DNA from: Spiroplasma platyhelix PALS-1
Lineage (GTDB): Bacteria; Bacillota_I; Bacilli_A; Mycoplasmatales; VBWQ01
NCBI RefSeq assembly: GCF_021496725.1
Contig: NZ_CP051215.1
Coordinates: 248,001 to 312,000, forward strand
Reading direction: 5' to 3'
Length of the DNA: 64,000 bases
Part shown: positions 56,723-59,958 of the stretch, piece after piece
How positions within the stretch are numbered: the stretch's first letter is position 1
How the letters are laid out: every line of letters begins with the position of its first letter
Notes under the pieces: generated by a model
What the model saw: the letters and a program-made list of their open reading frames with translations, nothing else
Told to the model about the DNA's origin: nothing
Database searches by the model: none
Translations under genes and position numbers: made by a program

Positions 56723-58129
56723 GTGATAGTAGCAATCAAACAATTATATAATAACGATAACGAAGCTACAAAAGTAGTGACAATTCAGGGGTGAGTTAAA
56801 TCAAATCGTAATGGTAATAAAGTTGGCTTTTTAGATATTAATGATGGTAGTACATTGAAAACTTTACAAGTTGTTTATAATGTTGAAAATCCAGCATGAA
56901 AACAATTAATAGAAGTTACTACTGGTAGTGCTATTAGTGTGACTGGAGAAATTGTCTTGACAGATAAGGCACAACAACCATTTGAATTAAAATTACAAAG
57001 TTTAGATTTTCTTAACTTAGCGGATAAAAATTATCCAATTCAGAAAAAAGCTCATAGTCATGAATTTTTGCGTGAACAAGCACATTTGAGATCAAGAACT
57101 GATACCTTTTTAGCAATTTTTAAAGTTCGCAATCAGATTGCTTTTGCAATTCATCAATTCCTACAAAACTCTGATTTTATTTATTTAAATAGTCCAATAA
57201 TTACAGCAAATGATGCTGAGGGTGCTGGAGAAAACTTTATTGTTACCACAATTACTAGTGATCAATATGAAAAAGATTTCTTTGGCAAAAAAGCTGCTTT
57301 GACTGTTAGTGGTCAGTTAAATGCTGAAGCATATGCACAAGCTTTTAAAAAGGTTTACACATTTGGTCCAACTTTTCGTGCCGAAAATTCTAATACGACT
57401 CGTCATGCAGCAGAATTTTGAATGATTGAACCCGAGGTTGCTTTTGCAGATTTAGAAAGTACTATTAAGTTAGCTAAAGATTTAGTAATTTCAGTTGTTA
57501 GCAATGTGCTTGAAAATTGTCCAGCAGAGGTTGATTTTTTTAATCAAAGATTAAAGTCAACAGAACAAAGTCAGGACAATTTAATGAAAAGACTAGCAAT
57601 GCTAACAAAAGCAGAATCTTATAAAGTACTGACTTACACAGAAGTAATTGAGATTTTACTAAAAGCAAAAGAGCAAGGAAAAGAATTCATTTTTAATGAT
57701 ATTAAATGAGGAATGGATTTGCAATCTGAACATGAAAGATATCTTTGTGAAGAAGTTTCTAAAGGTCCTGTTTTTGTGACAAATTATCCACAAGATATTA
57801 AAGCTTTTTATATGAAAGCAAATCCAATTTCACAAGATACTCCAGAAAGAAGAACAGTTGCAGCAATGGACTTATTAGTTCCTGGCATTGGTGAATTAAT
57901 TGGTGGTTCAGTCAGAGAAGATGATTATGATAAGTTAATTGCTAATAAAAAACAATTTAAAATTGAGAATAATGATTTACAATGATATTTTGATTTACGA
58001 AAATCAGGTTTTGCACCAAGTGCTGGTTTTGGTTTAGGTCTGGAACGTTTAATTATGTTGATTACAGGAATTAATAATATTCGTGATGTGATTCCGTTCC
58101 CTAGAACGCCAAATAATTTGACTTTTTAA
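56723..58129 (+). CDS. asnS: asparaginyl-tRNA synthetase
   Basis: A 468-residue class IIb synthetase: N-terminal OB fold ([24 protein letters not shown]), the AsnRS marker [17 protein letters not shown], motif 2 [25 protein letters not shown] (given in parts: [17 protein letters not shown]) and motif 3 [13 protein letters not shown]. It charges tRNA-Asn directly, so the amidotransferase route is not needed. The start is a GTG at 56723 behind AAGGAG; no ATG is available nearby. Divergent from the NUDIX gene across a 116-base AT-rich gap with several TATAAT-like boxes. Confidence 0.96.
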
Positions 58130-58135
58130 AAAAAT

Positions 58136-58165
58136 AAAAAAATAGTTAGTTCTAACTATTTTTTT
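58136..58165 (+). terminator. asnS terminator
   Basis: AAAAAAATAGTTAG / CTAACTATTTTTTT stem with a two-base loop in the given pairing (opens to four), T run. Confidence 0.85.
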
Positions 58166-58222
58166 ATTTTTTATTTTGATTATTCTTTTGGCAAGAGAAA
58201 GATAATTCTACTTAATAGTGGT

Positions 58223-58251
58223 ATGACAATAAAAAAATCCTTTTATATAAT
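58223..58251 (+). promoter_or_regulatory. promoter of the first collar-like paralogue
   Basis: ATGACA (-35, 58223-58228), 17-bp spacer, TATAAT (-10, 58246-58251). A 26-bp block 58215-58240 covering the -35 is identical to the one upstream of the second paralogue. Confidence 0.85.
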
Positions 58252-58292
58252 CAATGTGTAAAAATAGAATTATATAAAAAGGAGGGTTTAAT

Positions 58293-58958
58293 ATGAACCG
58301 AATATTAAAAGACTGCATGAATACATGTTGTTGCAAAAAAGAACAAAATATTTGTGATGTAATTGATGGTCTTGGTAAGGTAGTAGAAGAAATTGAATGC
58401 AATAAAAAATCAGCTAAAGAATCAGAAAAAATAAAGAAAGATATCAGAGAAGAAACAACTGAACTAATCACAGAGGCTAAAGAAGAATTATTAACTTTAA
58501 TAAACAAAGTTGATAGTGAAAAATGAGTTATTGGTGAATATAAATGAATGCCAGTTGGATCAAAAATGCCAGAAGGATGAATTAAGATTGATTTGGGTCA
58601 AGGACAAACATTAGTTCAAGGTATTGAGGCAGGTAAAACAGAAGGAATTGTTAAGTCACATAGTCACTTCTTTCCATATGAATTTGGTGTTTGAGCAACT
58701 CATAAAGTGATTTATGGAAAAGGTACTGCCACTGGTGCTGATGATGTTCTTTTCCCTTATGTAAATGATATTAAAGATGCAGCTGTTTTATTTAACACTG
58801 CTGGATATGGTGGGAACTTAAGCGAAGATCAAAAAGAAAATTTAGCAGCAGGAACATATGCTGAACTTTGACAATATAAAGGTACTGGTTACAAGAAGGA
58901 AATGTTAAAGAAATGTTTAGCAAAATCTATTAGTGATTGTTTAGATAAGAAAGAATAA
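58293..58958 (+). CDS. Cys-rich, phage-collar-like protein (paralogue 1)
   Basis: A 221-residue soluble protein with no signal peptide. The N-terminal 22 residues hold a Cys cluster (Cys8, 12, 13, 14, 21; another at 36). Residues 40-78 are a charged coiled coil. A constant block SEKWVIGEYKWMPVGSKMPE and GW follows, resembling the entry of phage tail-collar domains (GSxxPxGW), then a variable core with SHSHFF, and a constant end LAAGTYAELWQYKG with Cys-containing helices. GGAGGG precedes the ATG. The upper half is identical in layout to the paralogue 190 bases downstream. Function unknown; a trimeric fibre or metal-binding stalk is a hypothesis. Confidence 0.75.
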
Positions 58959-58988
58959 AATTTATTCTTTAAACCTCAAATAATTTAA

Positions 58989-59032
58989 TTTAAAATCAAA
59001 AAAATAATAACAACTATTTTTTTGATTTTAAA
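58989..59032 (+). terminator. long intrinsic terminator
   Basis: A perfect 18-bp stem (TTTAAAATCAAAAAAATA and its complement) with an 8-base loop, between the two paralogues. Confidence 0.85.
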
Positions 59033-59079
59033 TCTTTTATTTACTAAATGAATATTTTATTATCTTGACTGATAGTGGT

Positions 59080-59108
59080 ATGACAATAAAAAAATCCGTA
59101 TATATAAT
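59080..59108 (+). promoter_or_regulatory. promoter of the second collar-like paralogue
   Basis: ATGACA (59080-59085), 17-bp spacer, TATAAT (59103-59108). It carries the same 26-bp ATAGTGGTATGACAATAAAA-containing block as the first paralogue's promoter. Confidence 0.85.
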
Positions 59109-59148
59109 TAATCTGTAAAAATATAATTTATACAAAAGGAGGTTTAAT

Positions 59149-59826
59149 ATGAGCCGATTATTAAAAGACTGCATGAATGCATGTTCTTGCAAAAAGGAAG
59201 AAAATATTTGTGATGTAATTGATGGTCTTGGCAAAGTAGTTGAAGGAATTGATTGTGCTAAAAAAATAGCTAAAGAAATAGAAAAAGCGAAAAAAGAAAT
59301 AGAAGAAAAAACAGATAATTCAATTGAAAGTGTTAAAGAAGAATGACTAGCTTTATTAGAGAAATTTAATAGTGAAAAATGAGTTATTGGTGAATATAAA
59401 TGAATGCCAATTGGATCAAAAATGCCAGAAGGATGAGTTAAAGTAGAACTTACTGCAGGACAAACATTAATTCAAGGTGATAAAGAAGGAAATACAGCAG
59501 GAGAAGTTAAAGAACATTATCATGACTTTTTTGGAAAACGTCAATGTATATCAATTCCGCATGATCAAACATTTTATGCAATGAATCGTCCAACAAATAT
59601 TGAGTTAGATCCTGAAACATTTATTCAATTTACAAGAAGAGAAGCACCTACAATAGGACTTACTAGAACTGATCCTGTAGGTGGAACAAATAATTTAGCA
59701 GCTGGTAAATTTGCTGAACTTTGACAATACAAAGGTATTGATGAAAAAAAGAAGAATATGAAGAAATGTCTTGAAAAGTATTTGGAAGACTACATGGATT
59801 GCATTGAAAATAGCAAGAAAAAATAA
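59149..59826 (+). CDS. Cys-rich, phage-collar-like protein (paralogue 2)
   Basis: A 225-residue paralogue of the preceding gene. The Cys pattern is kept (Cys8, 12, 14, 21, 36), the coiled coil is longer in Lys/Glu, and the constant block SEKWVIGEYKWMPIGSKMPE is nearly identical. The middle differs fully in sequence (HDQTFYAMNRPTNIELDPE) but retains an HxH (KEHYHDFF) like the SHSHFF of paralogue 1. The end (LAAGKFAELWQYKG, then Cys-rich KKCLEKYLEDYMDC) is again constant. AAAGGAGG precedes the ATG. Constant-variable-constant layout hints at diversification of a binding face on a common scaffold. No known family could be assigned with confidence. Confidence 0.75.
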
Positions 59827-59892
59827 TTATATTAAATTCACTATAAAAATTTTAATTAAATATAAAACTTACCTAATTTAATATGTTTATAT

Positions 59893-59920
59893 AAAAGTCA
59901 ATCATGAATGATTGACTTTT
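59893..59920 (+). terminator. intrinsic terminator
   Basis: AAAAGTCAATCAT / ATGATTGACTTTT perfect 13-bp stem with a GA loop. Confidence 0.88.
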
Positions 59921-59958
59921 ATTTCCTTAAAATTGAAGTATTCAATTTTCATTTTTAC

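Follow-up and report, generated by a model that had tools for sequence, protein, structure and literature searches.

Within a 64,000-nucleotide stretch of DNA (hereafter the window, positions 248001-312000 of the single 744,499-base contig that constitutes its genome), Spiroplasma platyhelix PALS-1 carries two neighbouring genes for small cysteine-rich proteins that agree closely in some parts and hardly at all in another, which raises the question of what these proteins are and where they came from. The initial annotation suggested a domesticated fibre-like or metal-binding system with diversifying tips. The reading preferred here, to which a probability of about 0.58 is given, is that the two genes encode orphan phage-type receptor-binding fibres, probably trimeric and metal-pinned, with diversified tips and an adhesin-like or decoy use. 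The nearest other genus to this genome is the one containing S. ixodetis. TGA is read as Trp in this genome (genetic code 4), and both reading frames, which contain five TGA codons apiece, are intact and open only under this code; the table 11 reading, interrupted by TGA in both frames, was rejected. The two genes are tandem paralogues on the same strand, flanked upstream by asnS and downstream by an amino-acid permease gene, housekeeping neighbours identified by reading, and the locus is organised as follows:

58129..58172, + strand: AT-rich hairpin in the interval between asnS and copy 1, a 21-bp perfect inverted repeat (fold z -6.6)
58215..58251, + strand: copy 1 promoter-like site, ATGACA-N17-TATAAT (11/12), including the 26-bp block 58215-58240, which occurs only at the two genes
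58279..58285, + strand: copy 1 ribosome-binding site AAGGAGG, by direct reading
58293..58958, + strand: copy 1 (P0001), 221 aa in code 4, with Cys-rich N-terminus, helical stalk, tip and short helical tail
58293..58400, + strand: copy 1 Cys-rich N-terminus, residues 1-36, with Cys 8, 12, 13, 14, 21 and 36
58521..58586, + strand: copy 1 constant tip block KWVIGEYKWMPVGSKMPEGWIK, residues 77-98, 91% (aa) and 95% (nt) identical to copy 2 and conserved in the family
58659..58667, + strand: copy 1 HxH (HSH), residues 123-125, invariant in 8/8 aligned tips
58668..58838, + strand: copy 1 variable middle, residues 126-182 (z 0.9 against copy 2, z 4.5 against the G060 tip)
58839..58883, + strand: copy 1 constant end NLAAGTYAELWQYKG, from family alignment and blockwise comparison
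58988..59033, + strand: hairpin between copy 1 and copy 2, a 19-bp perfect inverted repeat (fold z -9.1)
59072..59108, + strand: copy 2 promoter-like site, ATGACA-N17-TATAAT (11/12), including the exact repeat of the 26-bp block at 59072-59097
59136..59142, + strand: copy 2 ribosome-binding site AAGGAGG, by direct reading
59149..59826, + strand: copy 2 (P0002), 225 aa in code 4
59377..59442, + strand: copy 2 constant tip block KWVIGEYKWMPIGSKMPEGWVK, from family alignment and blockwise comparison
59515..59523, + strand: copy 2 HxH (HYH), residues 123-125, from family alignment
59524..59691, + strand: copy 2 variable middle, like that of no other member (z at most 1.8 against all others)
59692..59736, + strand: copy 2 constant end NLAAGKFAELWQYKG, from family alignment and blockwise comparison
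59891..59922, + strand: hairpin 3' of copy 2 (fold z -5.1)

Each gene thus has its own promoter-like site, ribosome-binding site and strong hairpin. The duplicated promoters described earlier were borne out, the 26-bp block being exact at both genes (chance expectation in the window 0.00) and absent elsewhere from the 744-kb genome with up to three mismatches allowed. The promoter scan taken alone does not rise above shuffles in this AT-rich region (18 sites versus 14.9 in shuffled sequence). The T-rich arm of the hairpin at 58129..58172 is similar to the hairpin that precedes copy 2. Further copies of the genes had been proposed for search, and no third one was found: the genome holds exactly two, with either the full-length protein or the N-terminus alone as query. 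In the sister genome G002, the interval between asnS and the permease gene is filled by an unrelated 516-aa reading frame of no known function (L082:1780-3330), which points to a lineage-specific gain of the two window genes at this site.

The proteins share Cys8/12/14/21/36, as the initial annotation had stated, followed by a helical stalk, a W-GEYKWMP(V/I)GSKMPEGW block, the HxH and AAGxxAELWQYKG; two further Cys lie near the C-terminus. Amino acid identity between the copies is 81% over residues 1-36, 53% over 37-76, 91% over 77-98, 52% over 99-125, 21% over 126-184, 85% over 185-197 and 42% in the tail, so that the near-identical GSKMPEGW block and the constant-variable-constant layout both hold. 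Two details of that description had to be amended: the middles are indeed no closer to each other than to shuffled sequence, but the HxH stands just ahead of the variable stretch rather than inside it; and the constancy of the end stops at ELWQYKG, beyond which the final 24-29 residues diverge. Between the copies, dS is about 0.3-0.5 across most of the gene. The constant blocks have a dN of 0.04-0.08 and the stalk one of 0.40 (dS 0.29), while in the middle dN reaches about 1.1 at a dS of 0.80, on an alignment that is itself unsafe. Change has been far greater in the stalk, and greatest in the middle of the tip, than in the frame that holds them. Since the middle of copy 1 resembles that of P0005 from G060, and weakly those of the G149 and S. 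ixodetis members, while the middle of copy 2 resembles none, copy 1 probably retains the older tip type and the middle of copy 2 was probably replaced or remade.

The likeness to phage fibres is best judged from a prophage-like element found in other Spiroplasma genomes. The window tips match the C-termini of both fibre-type genes of G143 (BLASTP E about 1e-15 to 1e-21), which lie at L034:8837-10333 and L034:13944-15257 inside a cluster of genes without known function. These two genes are themselves a duplicated fibre in which the body is 100% constant and the tips are divergent. A 53%-identical counterpart of the G143 fibres occurs in G170 (L049:394-2019), and its tip matches the window proteins weakly (E 0.002-0.003). 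Alongside a terminase large subunit (PHROG 2, 9e-7), the related cluster of G170 encodes proteins resembling a major head protein (1.3e-3) and a holin (4e-4), and one of 457 aa that is portal-like by reading; no terminase was found in the stretches of G143 that were read. G063 holds a third such cluster, with the same fibre body and another C-terminus. The sister genome G001 encodes a repetitive 1534-aa protein (L035:7137-11741) whose repeats are nearly identical, with a tail-fibre PHROG match and a diverged tip at its end. The prophage-like fibres are thus like the window proteins in having a homologous tip with HxH and AAGxxxxLWxY and in combining constant bodies with variable tips; they are unlike them in carrying a conserved N-terminal domain of about 300 residues and in lying in a virion-type cluster, whereas the window proteins have a short Cys-rich stalk and no phage genes. 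The statement that no phage genes lie nearby was upheld and, for phage genes of this lineage, extends to the whole genome, in which neither a terminase nor the 683-aa protein of the element was matched.

Among well-studied systems, the tips of T4 gp12 and gp37 start with a PEGW-like sequence. The phage collar and receptor-binding likeness proposed earlier stands in that the tip is homologous to a prophage fibre C-terminus, and falls as to the collar family itself: PF07484 matched neither protein, none of eight tips (E up to 1 or 10) and nothing elsewhere in the genome, while T4 gp12 as positive control matched it at 7e-14. HHalign against T4 gp12 gave nothing. Mu S and P2 H were dropped as collar references, being without PF07484, and the Phage_Mu_F family search was uninformative. 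In known fibres, the HxH motifs of three chains bind one Fe or Zn ion on the axis, and in the R-type pyocin fibres R1 and R2 one axial iron is held in this way (PMC6116203). T4 gp12, which has the PF07484 collar and the PF14928 receptor-binding domain, and T4 gp37 likewise have a fibre tip with a metal-binding HxH in a trimer (PMC6116203); the window proteins match gp12 neither in Pfam nor by HHalign. The pyocin fibres share the HxH; unlike the window proteins they belong to a contractile particle, and no sequence match to them emerged from the PDB search. The tail fibre S of phage Mu, with its alternative tip S', also combines a constant base with alternative tips. In Mu, the tips are switched by an invertase. 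In the window the alternative tips belong to separate genes, two in number, and lack flanking long inverted repeats.

The tip is a module of about 120 residues, and 18 columns are invariant in the eight aligned tips, including the HxH, an N, a G and LWxY. In a profile search of 392 genomes spread over the phylum, all convincing members outside this genome came from a handful of genomes of the same order; weak matches in G014, G029, G084, G278, G288 and G466 were near threshold and were rejected. The tips recur mostly on stalks other than that of the window pair. The S. ixodetis member P0003 has a coiled-coil stalk in which three Cys (residues 107, 121 and 135) are spaced at intervals of 14, the stalks of G081 and G060 are long repetitive coils, the latter like YadA stalks, and the G149 member is a bare tip. 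P0004 has one Cys, and P0005 and the G149 protein have none, with HxH and tip frame still present; the Cys-rich N-terminus is specific to the two window genes rather than a conserved feature of the family. The S. ixodetis tip is 56-59% identical to tips of another family versus 43-46% to the window's own-family tips, which hints at lateral movement, or else at a difference in rate, and the tip tree, with its branching order not resolved, does not prove a direction of transfer. The tip gene of S. ixodetis SHM is frameshifted (L013:3233-4083) and that of G003 ends abruptly beside a transposase gene (L007:198-1845), so the gene is dispensable in S. ixodetis. In G081 and G060 alike, the orphan tip gene is adjoined by a small reading frame that is HNH endonuclease-like by reading (L032:10229-10531 and L031:11228-11599).

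Searches of Pfam, PHROGs, NCBIfam and PDB sequences with the tip returned no family, and the phage and plasmid collections returned no match to it. The plasmid matches of P0005 were set aside as YadA-like coiled coils, mostly from its stalk, and L040 in IMG/VR as a chance GEYKWMP match. Scans of genomes and viruses with back-translated peptides gave no match, which the use of TGA for Trp may explain; S. ixodetis SHM was recovered by a pattern that allowed for TGA.

Taken together, the homology of the tip to prophage fibres, its invariant HxH and its occurrence on exchanged stalks favour a binding tip of phage-fibre type, and the origin and architecture, namely such a tip on a short Cys-rich helical stalk, are likely and the well-supported part. 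The missing matches to known families and to T4 gp12, together with the weak match to the G170 tip, count against it, as do the lack of a terminase in the G143 stretches read, the lack of an export signal and the broken S. ixodetis copies. The proteins are orphans, having neither the N-terminal domain of the prophage type nor phage genes of that lineage elsewhere in the genome, and since the copies differ most in the prophage-homologous tip, they resemble attachment parts of a phage that the bacterium has retained and modified. The domesticated, fibre-like system proposed at the outset survives to this extent, with tips varying on constant bodies in both the window and G143 and no phage genes of that lineage in the genome, and loses its collar family membership. 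Its diversifying character is partly supported, on the thin base of two paralogues and the other species.

In operation, the chains would form parallel trimers on a Cys-rich base that may be crosslinked or metal-bound, and the paired His of three chains would hold one axial metal ion, by analogy with T4 gp12/gp37 and the R-pyocin fibres. The stretch between the HxH and AAGxxAELWQY would be the exposed binding surface, in which case the two copies may bind different partners. AlphaFold models of the monomers, built on four-row alignments, reached pLDDT of 43.5 and 36.8 and contain, at this low confidence, a long N-terminal helix. The proteins would most likely be released or surface-associated binders, either adhesin-like or decoys competing with phage fibres, a role that is a guess with the odds against it. 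The absence of a signal peptide stated earlier was confirmed, and neither protein has a lipobox or a membrane span: the mean hydropathy over 19 residues reaches at most 0.75 and the N-terminus is without hydrophobic stretch, so there is no visible route to the outside. It is a rather speculative extension that the receptor-binding tip of a resident phage lineage has been captured again and again by Spiroplasma hosts, refitted to the bacterium's own stalks and diversified into phage decoys or adhesins for the arthropod host.

Other explanations have to be weighed against these observations. The pair could be decaying cargo, left over from a prophage or satellite since lost, open by recency and useless to the bacterium, as the broken S. 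ixodetis copies, the patchy distribution of the tip and the lineage-specific site between asnS and the permease gene would allow. Two intact copies whose frame has been held at the dS and dN values given above, each with its own expression signals in a reduced genome, and stalks that differ from the prophage type make this unlikely. That the proteins are virion or tail parts in use, as spare receptor-binding fibres for a phage, satellite or tailocin of the species, is distinctly improbable, even though phage fibres of the family do exchange tips on constant bodies and same-family genomes are full of the prophage-like lineage. With the genome retaining no virion genes of this lineage, they are not taken for virion parts; the prophage-type N-terminal domain is missing as well, and the separate promoters look constitutive.

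The least probable alternative, at long odds, is a cytoplasmic metal-binding or redox protein in which the Cys-rich base and the HxH serve metal storage or sensing and the likeness to fibres is incidental. The five common N-terminal Cys, the two near the C-terminus, the HxH and the lack of an export signal are all compatible with it, but the Cys pattern is confined to the window pair while HxH and frame are kept by members almost or wholly devoid of Cys, and the tip is homologous to that of a prophage fibre. If the preferred reading of orphan phage-type fibres is true, wall-less symbionts with reduced genomes have taken over and diversified phage receptor-binding tips, and the pair offers small proteins for direct tests of host attachment or phage blocking.

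The analysis also exposed the prophage-like element as an uncatalogued Spiroplasma phage lineage, with up to 39 matches to one protein in S. ixodetis-type genomes; three of its proteins had no match in 50,697 phage records. The element extends over L051:14877-18543 and L052:1153-8166 in G170, L063:3342-15381 in G063 and L034:3496-15257 in G143, and the lineage also encodes a small lipoprotein-like gene. In the S. ixodetis-type genomes G003, G004, G005, G006 and G008, the 683-aa protein is matched 4 to 39 times per genome, chiefly over its C-terminal half, and several terminase-like matches occur as well. The gene for the 1534-aa protein of G001 is followed by a UPF0236-family transposase gene. 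In G143, a 688/707-aa protein that neighbours the fibre is duplicated as well (L034:6239-8305 and L034:10290-12413), with flanks about 90-100% identical and unrelated sequence around residues 300-420, and forms a second constant-variable-constant pair.
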